DNA of 42,909 bases. Origin: Pseudomonadota bacterium (GTDB taxonomy: Bacteria > Desulfobacterota > Desulfarculia > Desulfarculales > Desulfarculaceae). Below the pieces are notes generated by a model. That model ran no database searches and had not been told where the DNA came from. It was given only the letters and a program-made list of their open reading frames with translations. Of this stretch, positions 30,785 through 39,008 are shown in pieces; position 1 is the stretch's first letter, and the number at the start of each line of letters is the position of its first letter. Location: contig JAHJPG010000038.1 in assembly GCA_018819925.1 (NCBI GenBank), forward strand, positions 1 to 42,909, in the 5' to 3' direction. The translations under genes were made by a program, and so were the position numbers.

Positions 30785-30956
30785 AGCAAAGTTTCACGAT
30801 CTAACCGTTCATCAATCTTAACCCTTTTCATGGCCATCGCACAACCTTCTCCCGCAGGGCGGGTCTGCTTGACCCTGGGCGGTAGGGAGGCTATCCTGAA
30901 TATATGGTTGGGTGACTCTCTCAAACTTTTAGCACCCAGATAGGAGGTGCGATGTT

Positions 30957-30974
30957 CTGTCCACGCGTGGACAG
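30957..30974. promoter_or_regulatory. 18-bp perfect palindrome in the leader of the baeRF gene
   Basis: CTGTCCACGCGTGGACAG is its own reverse complement. It lies about 115 nt upstream of the ATG at 31088 and directly after an AGGAGG. It could be a repressor operator or an RNA hairpin. The gap 30785-31087 contains no gene that I accept. Confidence 0.5.
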
Positions 30975-31054
30975 GCACATCTCCCGCCGGCCTCTCTCCG
31001 GGCTTTGCCCCCGGGAAACCCCCCCACGGCAAGCGCCACGGCGCAGTATGCATA

Positions 31055-31075
31055 GGGCCAGATTTCGCCTGGCCC
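31055..31075 (+). promoter_or_regulatory. Hairpin abutting the ribosome-binding site of the baeRF gene
   Basis: GGGCCAG (31055-31061) pairs with CTGGCCC (31069-31075) around a 7-nt loop, and the Shine-Dalgarno AAGGAGAG starts at the next base. A stem ending exactly at the ribosome site suggests translational control. Confidence 0.5.
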
Positions 31076-31087
31076 AAGGAGAGCTTT

Positions 31088-32215
31088 ATGCTACAAGACC
31101 GCCAATTGCACCAGCTCGCTTCCATTCGCACCACACCATACCCCACCCTAAGTTTGTACCTGGCTTTGGACCAGTCCAGAGAGCAGCGTCTGTTGGCCTT
31201 GGGGGACATGATCAAACGAAAGGAGCAGCAACTGAGCGGTAACGGAGCGGCCGCCTTGTGGTCGGCCATGAGTGATGACCTGCAAAAAGTAGGTCGGCTG
31301 GTGGAAGAGTTGCCGGCCAGCCCGGGGCGGGGTCTGGCCGTGTTCGCCTGCGCCCAGACCGGACTTTTCGAGAGCCTGAACTTGGAGGTGCCACTGGACA
31401 ACCTGTTGGAAACCGGTCCCGCCCCCTACATCCGGCCCTTGGCCGCCCTGGCCGGAGACCTGCGCCCCACCCTGGCCGTGCTTTTGGACGGAAAGCGGGC
31501 TCGCTTTTTCCGCTGCTTCTTGGGAACCGCCGAGGAGTTGTCCGAGGCTGAGATCATCAACGACGCCGCGCCCAGCCTGGAGGGAGGCGGACAGGGGCGC
31601 ACCGGCGACAGTCACCTGTCGCGCAAGTCAGGCCAGGCCCGCACTCGCTACCTGAAGGATGTGGCCGCCCAAGCCCGGGGACTCGTGGATCAATCGGGAT
31701 TCGAACATTTGGTCCTGGGCGGACTAAGGTCGGTGGTGGACGAGTTGGGCGAGCAACTGCATCCCTACCTGGAAGAACGCCTGGCCGGCGGTTTCAGCCT
31801 GGAGGTCACCGCCGGGCCTTCCCAGGTGGCCCAGGAGGTGGTCCAGGTGCTCCAGGAGTCGCGACGCCTGCGCCAAGAGACGCTCCTGGCCAACCTGGCC
31901 GACAACCTGGGGCCGGGCGGCCAGGCGGCCACCGGGCTCAACCAGGTGCTGGGGGCCTTGTTCGAGGAACGGGTTCACACCCTGTTCGTGCGCCGGGGGC
32001 TCACCGCATCGGGCGGGTGCTGCCCCTCCTGCGGCCGCCTTCGCCACGTGGCCGGTGTATGCCCCATTTGCAACCAGGCCATGACCCCGGTGGACGACGT
32101 GGTCAACCTGGCCGTGGCCGGGGCCCTGGTCGGCGGAGCCCGCCTGGAGCAGATCGACGGCGACTCGCCCCTGGACGAGCTGGGTGGCGTGGCCGCCTTG
32201 CTGCGCTATGCTTAG
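31088..32215 (+). CDS. Bacterial archaeo-eukaryotic release factor-like (baeRF) protein with zinc ribbon
   Basis: This 375-residue protein resembles the baeRF families, bacterial relatives of eRF1/Pelota that are thought to act on ribosomes. The N-terminus HQLASIRTTPYPTLSLYLAL and the middle GDLRPTLAVLLDGKRARFFRC match the family. LVLGGLRSVVDELGEQLHPYL corresponds to the central domain. A zinc ribbon with CCPSCG and CPIC pairs lies near residues 320-340, followed by the L7Ae-like tail ALVGGARLEQI. The ATG has AAGGAGAG five bases upstream; the in-frame GTG at 30947 has no spaced ribosome site. The exact subfamily is not certain. Confidence 0.8.
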   Translation: MLQDRQLHQLASIRTTPYPTLSLYLALDQSREQRLLALGDMIKRKEQQLSGNGAAALWSAMSDDLQKVGRLVEELPASPGRGLAVFACAQTGLFESLNLEVPLDNLLETGPAPYIRPLAALAGDLRPTLAVLLDGKRARFFRCFLGTAEELSEAEIINDAAPSLEGGGQGRTGDSHLSRKSGQARTRYLKDVAAQARGLVDQSGFEHLVLGGLRSVVDELGEQLHPYLEERLAGGFSLEVTAGPSQVAQEVVQVLQESRRLRQETLLANLADNLGPGGQAATGLNQVLGALFEERVHTLFVRRGLTASGGCCPSCGRLRHVAGVCPICNQAMTPVDDVVNLAVAGALVGGARLEQIDGDSPLDELGGVAALLRYA

Positions 32216-32251: not shown

Positions 32252-32737
32252 ATGAGTAAAAAAGACAAGATACCGGCCACGCCGGCCCTGCACGCCTTGA
32301 AGGGGGCCGGCGTGGCCTTTATCACCCGCCTCTACGACTATGTGTCCCGCGGAGGCACCGGTGAGGCCGCCCGCCAGTTGGGAGTGGACGAGCACCAGGT
32401 GATCAAGACCCTGGTGATGCAGGACGAGGGGGGCGGCCCCCTGCTGGTGCTCATGCATGGCGACCGGGAGGTTTCCACCAAGACCCTGGCCCGCCAAATG
32501 GGCCGCAAAACCATCGCCCCCTGCCCCGAGCGCGACGCCCAGCGCTACACCGGCTACCAGGTGGGGGGCATCAGCCCCTTCGGCATCCGCCGGGCCCTGC
32601 CGGTGTACGTGGAAAAAAGCATCCTGGAATTGGAGCGCCTGTACATCAACGGCGGCAGGCGGGGCCTGTTGGTGGAGACTACCCCGGCGGTGCTGGTCAA
32701 GATGTTAAACCCCACCCCGGTGGAAGCAGCCCTCTAA
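32252..32737 (+). CDS. ybaK: YbaK/EbsC-type Cys-tRNA(Pro)/Cys-tRNA(Cys) deacylase
   Basis: This 161-residue enzyme hydrolyses cysteine misacylated on tRNA-Pro. The family motifs are QVIKTLVMQDEG (with the catalytic-site Lys), MHGDREVSTKTLARQMG and YQVGGISPFGIRRALPVYV, where the GGISPFG loop is diagnostic. The length is normal. It follows the baeRF gene by 36 bp on the same strand. Its stop overlaps the end of the convergent selenoprotein gene by four bases. Together the pair suggests a translation quality-control theme. Confidence 0.92.
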   Translation: MSKKDKIPATPALHALKGAGVAFITRLYDYVSRGGTGEAARQLGVDEHQVIKTLVMQDEGGGPLLVLMHGDREVSTKTLARQMGRKTIAPCPERDAQRYTGYQVGGISPFGIRRALPVYVEKSILELERLYINGGRRGLLVETTPAVLVKMLNPTPVEAAL

Positions 32738-33207
32738 GAGTCCTTTTCCGCCTTTTCCAATATCTCGCCCAAATAAGCGGCCAGGTCCCCGGTGAGCCTG
32801 GTGCAGATCTGGCGGCGGCTGTCCGGCTGTCCGTAAAAGCTCTTCACCTGGTCCCGGTCCCGCCAATCCACCCGGGCGATCTCCGCGCAGTTGGTGCCGC
32901 CATGGGGTTGGCACATCTTGTCAAAGGCCTTGCTCAACTTGAAACTCAGCCGCCACATGTTGGCGTTGTCCTGCTCGTCCGGACTAGACTTACTGTAGCG
33001 GGCCGACACCGCCGCGATGGCCCCCAAAAGGATGCCGCAGGTGCGGCCGGTGGAGGCGATGCCGCCGCCATAGGCCCCCACCGCCCGTATCATGTCGGGA
33101 TCGTCAATGCCCAGCTTCTCCTGGCCCACGGCCAGGATCGCCTGGCTTCAATGCATCCTCTGCTGAAACAAATCCATGGCCTTGGCTCGCATCTGCTCGG
33201 GGGTCAT
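32734..33207 (-). CDS. C-GCAxxG-C-C family selenoprotein, copy A (Sec20)
   Basis: This gene reads through an in-frame TGA at 33148-33150 as selenocysteine. The full product is 157 residues beginning MTPEQMRAKAMDLFQQRMH, then Sec20, then SQAILAVGQEKLG. In the family the residue before SQA[IV]L is the first conserved Cys, so Sec replaces a redox Cys. The other conserved residues are C57 (GRTCGILLGA), C107 (GGTNCAEI) and C135 (QICTRL). A bSECIS hairpin follows the TGA. The upstream ATG has GGGAG before it. Family members are putative redox proteins with unknown partners. A gene caller that treats TGA as stop would start at residue 27 or discard the N-terminus. Confidence 0.88.
33120..33136 (-). 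promoter_or_regulatory. bSECIS element of selenoprotein copy A
   Basis: CCTGGCC-GTG-GGCCAGG (minus strand) forms a 7-bp perfect stem with a GUG loop. Counting the U of UGA as 1, the loop is nucleotides 22-24, within the distance range known for bacterial SECIS elements and with a G at the first loop position, as SelB binding requires. Confidence 0.82.
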
Positions 33208-33258
33208 GTGGCTTCTCCCAAAATATGGCGTTTGAGTCCCCGGACCCGGGGCGGGGCC

Positions 33259-33738
33259 CTACCCCGCCGGCCAGGGCCGGTTCTCCTCCAAAAGCTCTTC
33301 CAGATAAACGGCCATGTCGCAAATCAAATGTTCGCAACGCCGCCGGGTGCTGTCCGGCGCGGTGCGGAACCACCGTAGTTTTTCCTGGTCGTTCAGGTCA
33401 AATTCCACGATGCGGACGCACTCCACCCCGCCGTATGGGGCGGTCATCTCCTCGAAACGATGCACCAGCTTACTGCCCAAGGGCCGCAGCTTGGGGTCTT
33501 CGCACTCAAGGGAGTCCGCAGTGCCGTAGAGGCTGGCCACCATGGCCAAGGCTCCGGTCAGGATTCCGCAGACCCGGCCGCTACGAGCCATCCCGCCCCC
33601 GAAGGCGCCCATGGCCTTGATCACCTCCGGATGCATCCGTCCGGTTTTTTCCTGGCCCACGGCCAGAATGGCCTGGCTTCAATGATAGTTTTGGTTGAAC
33701 AGCTCCAGGGTGCGCTGGCGAATCTGCTGGGGGGTCAT
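33259..33738 (-). CDS. C-GCAxxG-C-C family selenoprotein, copy B (Sec20)
   Basis: This paralogue of the downstream gene is 159 residues, MTPQQIRQRTLELFNQNYH, then Sec20 (TGA at 33679-33681), then SQAILAVGQEKTG. The conserved cysteines C57 (GRVCGILTGA), C107 (GGVECVRI) and C135 (RRCEHL) align exactly with copy A. The identical placement of TGA in both copies, at the family's conserved Cys and followed by matching hairpins, argues for selenocysteine and against mutation. It is 51 bp upstream of copy A and 36 bp downstream of the NYN gene on the same strand, so the three are probably one transcript. SelA, SelB and tRNA-Sec genes are not in the window. Confidence 0.88.
33650..33668 (-). promoter_or_regulatory. 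bSECIS element of selenoprotein copy B
   Basis: TTCTGGCC-GTG-GGCCAGGA (minus strand) forms an 8-bp stem (one G-U pair) with the same GUG loop at nucleotides 22-24 after the U of UGA. The element is almost identical to that of copy A. Confidence 0.82.
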
Positions 33739-33774
33739 GGGGTCTCCCAAGGGTTTCGTTGGCCTACAGCCGCC

Positions 33775-34533
33775 TCAGACCGCCGCGCCAAAGCTGGCCA
33801 CGGTGTAGGTCCCGCTACGGGCGTCCTTGTTCAGGGTGATGATCCCCTGGGCCTCAGCGTCTAAAAGCAGGTCCGAAAAGGAACGGTAGCCGTGGTAGGA
33901 CTCGTCAAAGGACGGCTGCTTGCGCTTCATGGTGTCCTTGACCATGGAGGCGTAGATAACCTCTTTGTTTTCTCGTTGCAGGGCCAGGAGTGACTGGACA
34001 AGTATCTGAAAAACCTCTTGCTTTTCCTTGGGCAACCCCCTGGGCAGGGCTTGGGGCTGGCTGCGTTGGCGCTCCAGGTCTTCGTAATAGACGAACTCGT
34101 CGCAGTTGTCGCGCAACAGGTCGCTGGTGGATGCCTTCATGCCCAGGCCGATGACCCGCTTGCCGTTTTCCTTGAGCTTACTCACCAGGGGGGAGAAGTC
34201 GCTGTCCCCGCTGACGATTACAAAGGTGTCCACGTGGCTTTTGGAATAGCACAGGTCGATGGCATCCACCACCAGGCGGATATCGGCGCTGTTCTTGCCG
34301 GTTTGGCTGCGCTTGGGTATCTCGATAAGCTCCACGGCCAACTCGTGCATCTGGTGCTTGTAATGGCTGTAGCGGCTCCAATCGGCATAGGCCTTTTTTA
34401 CAACCACCTTGCCCTTTTCCACCAAACGTTCGAATATCAGCTTGGCGTCAAAGGTTTCCTTGCGGTTGTTAAGGCCCAGGGCCAAGTTTTCAAAGTCAAT
34501 GAACACGGCCAAGGTGTGTTCGCTGTCGGTCAA
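33775..34533 (-). CDS. NYN domain (LabA/DUF88-like) protein with C-terminal winged-helix
   Basis: This 252-residue protein has a PIN-like NYN nuclease domain with the acidic and polar residues of the active site: VFIDFENLALG (D13, N16), SADIRLVVDAIDL and IVSGDSDFSPLV. The C-terminal part (about 165-250: EVFQILVQSLLALQRENKEVIYASMVKDTMKRK...) looks like an OST-HTH/LOTUS winged helix that may bind RNA. LabA-type proteins are predicted RNases. It is the first gene of the operon with the two selenoproteins. The ATG has GGAGG at 34541-34545 (minus strand). Confidence 0.9.
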   Translation of the reverse strand: MTDSEHTLAVFIDFENLALGLNNRKETFDAKLIFERLVEKGKVVVKKAYADWSRYSHYKHQMHELAVELIEIPKRSQTGKNSADIRLVVDAIDLCYSKSHVDTFVIVSGDSDFSPLVSKLKENGKRVIGLGMKASTSDLLRDNCDEFVYYEDLERQRSQPQALPRGLPKEKQEVFQILVQSLLALQRENKEVIYASMVKDTMKRKQPSFDESYHGYRSFSDLLLDAEAQGIITLNKDARSGTYTVASFGAAV

Positions 34534-37280: not shown

Positions 37281-37796
37281 CTAGGTCCGGCTGGGGCCGG
37301 GCTTGGATTTGGCCGCGAAATGCAGGCGGCGCGGGGCGTGCAGGGAAGGCCGGTTGGCCGCCAAGTTGCGCTCCTGCCAACCGCGGCTGAGTATGAAGGT
37401 CGGCGAGCCGCCCCGCTCGGGAGCCGGCGAGAGGAACTCCTCGGCCACCCACTGCTCGACCAGGACCGCGCCGTCGGCGGGCAAGATGCCCAGCACCCGG
37501 CTTATCTCGGCCAGGGTGACGTTTTCGTTCTCGTCGAACATGGGCAGCACCCGCTTCTGGGGCTTGGTGAGCTTGCGGCGGGCCTCGGCCTCCAGGCGCT
37601 GGCGGCGGGACTGTTCATCTTCGGCGCCGGGCGGGCCGCCCTGCTTGAGGTAGTCGTTGACCTTGTTCATGAAGCCCTGAATCGCCCAGTCGCCCAGAAG
37701 CCCGGACTCCAACAAGCGCGCCCCCTGCTGGGAGCCCAAAAACTCCCGCCAGCGCACATACACCTCGTCGGAGAGGTTTATCTCTATGATCGGCAT
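37281..37796 (-). CDS. Hypothetical protein, 171 residues
   Basis: I do not recognise the family. It starts [21 protein letters not shown]. The middle is charged and helical ([23 protein letters not shown]). The stretch [30 protein letters not shown] looks like a winged-helix or MarR-like fold. The tail ([16 protein letters not shown]) is basic. No signal or membrane segment is seen. It is convergent with glgP and divergent from the CbiR-like gene. A DNA-binding role is a guess from the helix pattern. Confidence 0.6.
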
Positions 37797-37850
37797 GCTC
37801 GCCCTCCTTTGGCCAATGATTTACCAGCAACGCCGCCCGGAGTCCAGGCG

Positions 37851-39008
37851 ATGAGCCCCCCGGTGCTCTGGCTGGTGGGCGCGGCCCCGGCCCGAAAGCG
37901 GGCCGAGGCGCTTCGCGCCGCCTTGCCCGATGACTTGCAAGCCATCACCCTGGGCGCGGCCGGAGCCCCGGAGCCCGCGCTGGACCTGGGTCCCGGCCCG
38001 GATATGGCAATCGCCCTGGAGGCCTGCCCCTCCGAGTTGCGCCCGGCTGCGGTGCTGGTATTGGAGCCTGGACGGCCCCCCGCCGGGCTGGAGGGCCTGC
38101 CCTGCCCCACCCTGTCCTGGGGGGCCGCCTGCCCCGGCTGCGACGCCGTCGCCCCGGCCGGCCCCGCCGGCGCGGCCCAGGCCCTGGCCCAGGCCGCCAG
38201 CCAGGGCCGCCGGTGGCCCTGGCTGGGGCAAGTCCAGGTGAACCTGCCCCTGCGGGACCTGCTGGGCCGCTACGCCCCCCTGGCCGCCTCGGTGGCGGTC
38301 AACCCCGAGGTGGGCATCGACCACCAGGCCCTGGACAGCCTGGATCAGGCCCAGATAGCCCGGGCGGCTGGGATGCTGCAAGGCCGGCGGGTGAGCGCGC
38401 ACCTGCCCTTCATGGACCTGAGCCCCGGCAGTCCGGACCCGGCCATAGCCCGGGCCAGCCTGGAGCGCCTGAGCAAGGCGGCGGGCTGGGCCCTGGAGTT
38501 GGGGGCCGTGCGGGCGGTGGCCCATTTGGGTTACAGCGCGGACACCCACCGCCACCTGGGCGAATTTTGCCGCCGCCTGGCCCGAGGCCTGGCCCCCCTG
38601 GCCGCCCGCCTGCAAGAGGGCGGCTGCCCCATGGTTTTGGAAAACACCTTCGAGCCCGCCCCGGCAGTGCTCCTGGCCGCCCGGGAAGCCATCCTGCGGG
38701 CCGGCGGCCCGGCGGTGGGCTTCTGCCTGGACGTGGGCCACGCCTACTGCTTCTCGGCCACCTCCCTGCACGACTGGTGGCGAGCCCTGGCCCCTCACTT
38801 GGGCGAGCTGCACTTGCACGACAACGACGGCGCCTTTGATTACCACCGTCCTCCGGGTTGCGGGGTGGTGGACTGGGATTTTGTGAAGCGCTCCCTGGCC
38901 GCCTTGGAGAGCCCCCCCTTGCTCACCATGGAGCCCCACGCCGAGCCGGATCTGTGGGCCTTTTTGCGGGGTCTGGAAAAGGTGTGGGGGACGCCTCCCC
39001 CGACCTGA
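37851..39008 (+). CDS. Xylose isomerase-like TIM-barrel protein, possibly CbiR-type cobamide phosphodiesterase
   Basis: This 385-residue protein has a C-terminal AP-endonuclease-2/sugar-isomerase TIM barrel. Candidate metal ligands and active-site residues are H184 (AHLPFMDL), H225 (AHLGYSAD), E264 (LENTFE), D294 and H297 (CLDVGHAYCFS), H321/H323/D325 (LHLHDNDGAFD) and E361. The motifs resemble CbiR, which hydrolyses the phosphodiester of cobamides during remodelling; this is a motif-level resemblance only. A sugar-phosphate isomerase is the alternative. The first 120 residues, with CPTLSWGAACPGC, are not a known barrel part. The ATG 37851 was chosen because upstream in-frame codons overlap the divergent gene. 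Confidence 0.65.
   Translation: MSPPVLWLVGAAPARKRAEALRAALPDDLQAITLGAAGAPEPALDLGPGPDMAIALEACPSELRPAAVLVLEPGRPPAGLEGLPCPTLSWGAACPGCDAVAPAGPAGAAQALAQAASQGRRWPWLGQVQVNLPLRDLLGRYAPLAASVAVNPEVGIDHQALDSLDQAQIARAAGMLQGRRVSAHLPFMDLSPGSPDPAIARASLERLSKAAGWALELGAVRAVAHLGYSADTHRHLGEFCRRLARGLAPLAARLQEGGCPMVLENTFEPAPAVLLAAREAILRAGGPAVGFCLDVGHAYCFSATSLHDWWRALAPHLGELHLHDNDGAFDYHRPPGCGVVDWDFVKRSLAALESPPLLTMEPHAEPDLWAFLRGLEKVWGTPPPT

Follow-up and report, generated by a model that had tools for sequence, protein, structure and literature searches.

A probable tandem pair of selenoproteins of the C_GCAxxG_C_C family in a member of the Desulfarculaceae

Selenocysteine- (Sec-) containing proteins of the C-GCAxxG-C-C family are a recognized class. 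In two reviews (PMC13188914, PMC9312934) they are listed as "form 1" and "form 2", and several selenoprotein operons are catalogued in the review covering these Sec forms (PMC13188914/PMC9312934). The NCBI name of one family of this kind (TIGR01909) includes the term "(seleno)protein". Other described relatives are the DVU_1555 family C-GCAxxG-C-C protein (NF045669), the HUGP/GUXX-star fusion selenoprotein (NF045501), and split-Soret cytochrome c (NF047622; PDB 1h21), the title of whose structure names a novel iron centre. The present analysis concerns two head-to-tail genes, A and B, of contig JAHJPG010000038.1 (assembly GCA_018819925.1), from a bacterium of the Desulfarculaceae. The whole stretch of DNA analysed, 42,909 nucleotides (nt) long, is referred to as the window. 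The two genes are very probably a tandemly duplicated pair of PF09719 (C_GCAxxG_C_C) selenoproteins. The Sec form of the family is already known, as an earlier note on this DNA had correctly stated, and the pair is a further example of a known protein class. What it adds is a genus-specific tandem duplication, the replacement of Sec by Cys in just one of the copies, and a fold match to split-Soret cytochrome c. The portions of the selenoprotein review literature that were accessible contained no tandem PF09719 selenoprotein pair, a weak indication of novelty.

Gene B is followed by gene A on the minus strand, with an intergenic gap of 51 nt, and the two products are 44% identical. Each gene has one in-frame TGA, 57 nt after its ATG start, in the context xxH-U-SQAILAVGQEK. 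The frames, starts, ribosome-binding sites, and codon-20 TGAs are exactly as described in the earlier note, which had left the strand unstated. Under the standard code, the frames are open only from an internal GTG (V27), and the resulting open reading frames (ORFs) of 131 and 133 residues exclude the redox residue at codon 20. Standard annotation, as had been foreseen, truncates both genes and drops this conserved residue, and the pair would therefore be missed. These GTG-initiated ORFs are also what standard ORF finding offers to the view that the TGAs are true stops and that both genes are either decaying or really start at the downstream GTG, without the redox residue. This view is opposed already by the clear ribosome-binding site of the window genes, and further by the results on machinery, hairpin, and conservation given below. 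A promoter scan found no sigma-70-like promoter on the strand of the two genes, and nothing relevant was found in Rfam at the locus.

Both proteins belong to PF09719, with scores of 74.2 bits (E 1.2e-20) for A and 77.3 bits (E 1.3e-21) for B, against a Pfam gathering cut-off of 27 bits. Alignment shows that positions 20 (Sec or Cys), 57, 107, and 135 are invariant across 17 orthologues and paralogues, so that C57, C107, and C135 align as previously claimed. The codon-20 TGA coincides with the first of the four invariant cysteines of the relatives, and the proposed comparison with Cys-containing homologues bears this out. The genes resemble the PF09719/TIGR01909 "(seleno)protein" family in the four Cys positions, in length, in a PF09719 score far above the cut-off, and in the existence of Sec forms; they differ in being two tandem paralogues and in scoring slightly under the TIGR01909 cut-off (44.0 and 44.4 versus 47.4 bits), which leaves them outside that family. 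In NCBIfam, both proteins match NF045669 best, over nearly their full length, but their scores of 74.1 and 86.5 bits lie below its 103-bit cut-off, so they are not filed there either. NF045501 is homologous to the window proteins over its first part (E 4e-9), and its name alone suggests an HUGP motif resembling their HUSQ. However, it is a 236-position model listed with two Sec residues, and the window proteins reach 34-36 bits versus a cut-off of 325. Two further PF09719 paralogues occur in the same genome, neither with a TGA, and a scan of the genome contigs gave a single relative, which contains Cys.

The capacity to decode UGA as Sec is present. The genome (4.03 Mb in 145 contigs, 96% complete) contains a tRNA-Sec with anticodon TCA (73 bits) together with SelA (621 bits), SelB (389 bits), and SelD (369 bits), the three proteins scoring above their cut-offs. 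The search for selA, selB, selC, and selD proposed in the earlier note thus found all four. The SelD gene (L018 1501-2424) has an in-frame TGA at the active-site position, in a GUxxK motif. SelD is thus probably itself a selenoprotein, and its TGA points independently to the decoding of UGA as Sec in this genome.

Downstream of the UGA, both genes can form the hairpin CUGGCC-GUG-GGCCAG plus one outer pair, the loop beginning 19 nt past the UGA. A hairpin was regarded as similar to a selenocysteine insertion sequence (SECIS) if its stem had at least 5 pairs, its loop was 3-8 nt long and began 16-26 nt past the UGA, and G was among the first two loop bases. This criterion is our own, chosen after the sequences had been viewed, and differs from the bSECISearch program. 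It is satisfied by 23 of the 24 Sec genes and by 1 of the 18 Cys genes of the subfamily (Fisher p 1.2e-9, a guide only, as the test treats related genes as independent). When synonymous codons were redrawn, the expected numbers were 12.9 of 24 and 2.0 of 18, respectively. Conservation of the amino acids thus accounts for part of the stem, yet not for the surplus among Sec genes or the deficit among Cys genes. Minimum free energy (MFE) z-scores against synonymous randomisation are moderate (mean -1.1 for Sec genes and -0.3 for Cys genes, p 0.003), since the stem is itself favoured by the conserved LAVGQEK codons; a better separation of the two classes comes from the positional loop criterion. 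In more distant Sec genes the hairpin is shifted and has the loop GGUCGG or GGUU. The SECIS check suggested in the earlier note accordingly gave, by this criterion, a hairpin at a suitable distance that goes with the Sec copies. Among distant Sec homologues, L099, L102, L103, L104, and L106 have the hairpin CUUGC-GGUCGG-GCAAG instead of the GUG-loop form.

A family-level search found the pair in 7 genomes of the genus, so that 7 of its 8 genomes keep both copies. In all seven species it is flanked by an alpha-glucan phosphorylase gene and a YbaK-type deacylase gene, which indicates that the loci correspond. Position 20 is Sec in both copies of G000, G004, and G010, whereas in G006, G007, G008, and G009 copy B has Sec and copy A has Cys; copy B is therefore Sec in 7 of 7 species, and copy A is Sec in 3 and Cys in 4. 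Apart from the TGA, the frame is open in every pair copy, and the close relatives show none of the frameshifts or scattered stops for which the earlier note had advised looking. The start codon is kept across the species as ATG, or as TTG in two B copies. An in-frame TGA at codon 20 recurs not only in other species of the genus but also in more distant genomes of the phylum, and this recurrence at one and the same codon is more than chance. Single-copy genes have Sec in G003, G020, and a dozen more distant genomes and Cys in others. These results bear directly on the reading of the TGAs as true stops. Protein-level conservation extends over the codons preceding the TGA in all species, and relatives carry a Cys codon exactly at the TGA in an unbroken frame; the SECIS-like hairpin tracks the TGA, and the Sec machinery of the genome is complete. 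On the grounds of conservation, Sec/Cys exchange, hairpin, and machinery, frameshift or pseudogene status is rejected, and true stops are considered extremely improbable.

The head-to-tail arrangement stressed in the earlier note is real, and among the sampled genomes it is confined to the genus of the window. A second copy was found alongside in 0 of 26 further loci, namely, 25 from the genome searches (about 1.5 kilobases of flank where the contig allowed) and L026. The order of the paralogues varies: A comes first in G007, G008, and G010, and B in the others. The eighth genus genome, G005, gives weak matches to other family members only and seems to be without the pair. In that genome (L037 C64:8696-12034), selA is present and tRNA-Sec was not found, which may reflect a lost ability to decode Sec or a gap in the assembly. 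As a separate matter, pyrrolysine was considered for TAG codons inside distant matches (e.g., G381 and G075) and was dismissed, since in the 25 loci read the TAGs are ordinary terminal stops.

A maximum-likelihood tree was calculated from 42 sequences, 24 of Sec genes and 18 of Cys genes, after masking of the redox column; it unites the 14 tandem copies in a single clade (support 90/91). Within this clade, a B group (95/85) and an A group of six species (100/99) are recovered. The first copy of G010 is left unresolved at the base of the tandem clade and is assigned to A by similarity (59% to A, 50% to B). The four Cys copies of A cluster together (90/60), which fits a single change from Sec to Cys after the duplication. 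Over the whole tree there are at least 5 Sec/Cys changes, forced by the starred branches, and 7 on the best tree; their direction is not readable from these counts. The seven species with their differing Sec/Cys states represent a natural experiment on the exchange of Sec for Cys in a duplicated selenoprotein, with the accompanying loss of the SECIS-like signal. It may be asked whether the tandem arrangement is functionally meaningless, the duplication having been kept by chance and the copies acting singly. The restriction of the pair to one genus among the sampled genomes and the variable paralogue order are in line with this idea, but it appears unlikely given that both copies persist in 7 of 8 genus genomes, with invariant redox positions despite about 44% identity.

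An AlphaFold2 model built with 17 homologues gives a confident all-helical fold (predicted local distance difference test, pLDDT, 94), in which U20 is located at the start of a helix and C57 adjacent to a helix start. Foldseek searches of the PDB and of viral structures yielded nothing below E 0.001. In a VIA second look, where alone the match surfaced, PDB 1h21 was the sole standout among solved structures (Z 12.0 over 144 residues, next best 4.4), although the tool warns that helical models can score a high Z by chance. A sequence profile match to split-Soret cytochromes (E 0.003) agrees with the fold match, and split-Soret cytochromes themselves match PF09719 (E 2.9e-15). In the profile-profile alignment, C57, C107, and C135 are paired with three invariant cysteines of split-Soret cytochromes. 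The fourth invariant cysteine slightly precedes the aligned part, roughly at the place expected for U20. The likeness to split-Soret cytochrome c therefore extends over nearly the whole model and three matched cysteines of a protein that is itself a PF09719 member, whereas in the window proteins neither translation contains a CxxCH haem motif, the C-terminal haem region is missing, and Sec is present.

This likeness raises a sub-question within the selenoprotein reading, that is, whether the protein, with Sec inserted, holds an iron or iron-sulfur centre of split-Soret type, with Sec20 as a ligand or neighbour, rather than taking part in thiol/selenol exchange. The authors of the cytochrome structure are said to have proposed an iron-sulfur cluster for its iron centre. 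The pairing of the cysteines, the place of the fourth, and the invariance of all four positions in the window family favour such a centre. However, the first cysteine lies outside the coverage of the profile alignment, the haem motif is absent, and a common fold is no proof of a common cofactor, and the proposal is a tentative one, somewhat less probable than its converse. For a poorly characterised family, the fold match nevertheless offers a concrete, testable hypothesis, that of an iron centre resembling the one in split-Soret cytochrome c. A more specific version, in which the pair would be a haem-free split-Soret iron-centre domain with Sec as iron-sulfur ligand or direct partner and the paralogues would form a heterodimer, is decidedly improbable.

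Taken as selenoproteins, genes A and B would be expressed as follows. Readthrough, for which the machinery, the conservation, and the hairpin argue together, would involve the reading of UGA at codon 20 as Sec by SelB and tRNA-Sec, with insertion directed by the GUG-loop hairpin. Each product would be a predicted all-helical protein of about 158 residues with the conserved redox positions U20, C57, C107, and C135, and its fold would correspond to the PF09719 domain of split-Soret cytochrome c minus the haem-binding tail. The selenol may pair with a cysteine as a selenenylsulfide or may help to hold a metal centre. After duplication in the genus, copy B retained Sec in all pair-carrying species, and copy A went to Cys in four of seven. 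The products are most likely small, four-Cys/Sec cytoplasmic redox or electron-transfer proteins.

Several points weigh against this overall picture, besides the relatedness of the genes entering the Fisher test. Covariation in the hairpin is not significant, the GUG-loop stems being too conserved and alike for the test, and no tRNA-Sec turned up in the fragmented drafts G006 and G010, in which selA is present. The function of the pair, which is deduced from the fold and the cysteines only, is much less certain than its selenoprotein status. The neighbourhood of the pair offers no clue to function, and a crude comparison of the single-copy relatives revealed no consistent neighbour gene.

Table 1: Features of the selenoprotein pair and the adjacent gene in the window.
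Feature	Position	Strand	Remarks
Gene B, C_GCAxxG_C_C selenoprotein (probable)	33259..33738	minus	159 residues (TGA=U), Sec at codon 20, TAG stop
Gene A, paralogous C_GCAxxG_C_C selenoprotein (probable)	32734..33207	minus	157 residues (TGA=U), Sec at codon 20, TAG stop
In-frame UGA (Sec codon 20), gene B	33679..33681	minus	aligned with Cys TGT/TGC codons of homologues
In-frame UGA (Sec codon 20), gene A	33148..33150	minus	read from sequence and translation
SECIS-like hairpin, gene B	33651..33667	minus	7-pair stem, loop GUG, 19 nt after UGA
SECIS-like hairpin, gene A	33120..33136	minus	7-pair stem, loop GUG, 19 nt after UGA
Ribosome-binding site GGGAG, gene B	33744..33748	minus	
Ribosome-binding site GGGAG, gene A	33215..33219	minus	
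NYN-domain (PIN-like nuclease) gene, weak OST-HTH/LOTUS match	33775..34533	minus	ends 36 nt before gene B

The NYN-domain gene separates the phosphorylase gene from the pair in just 3 of 7 species and is therefore probably not part of the selenoprotein unit. On the plus strand, 30947-32215 encodes a relative of the MSMEG_1130/Rv2629-type ribosome hibernation factors (E 4e-25, under the cut-off of that family). It is conserved near the pair in 6 of 7 species and was not seen on the short contig of G010. Elsewhere in the window, the plus-strand ORF 37320-39008 overlaps ORF 37281-37796 of the opposite strand. The later part of the plus-strand ORF is similar to the cobamide remodelling phosphodiesterase CbiR (E 8e-12, under the cut-off), which makes a true start well downstream of 37320 probable.
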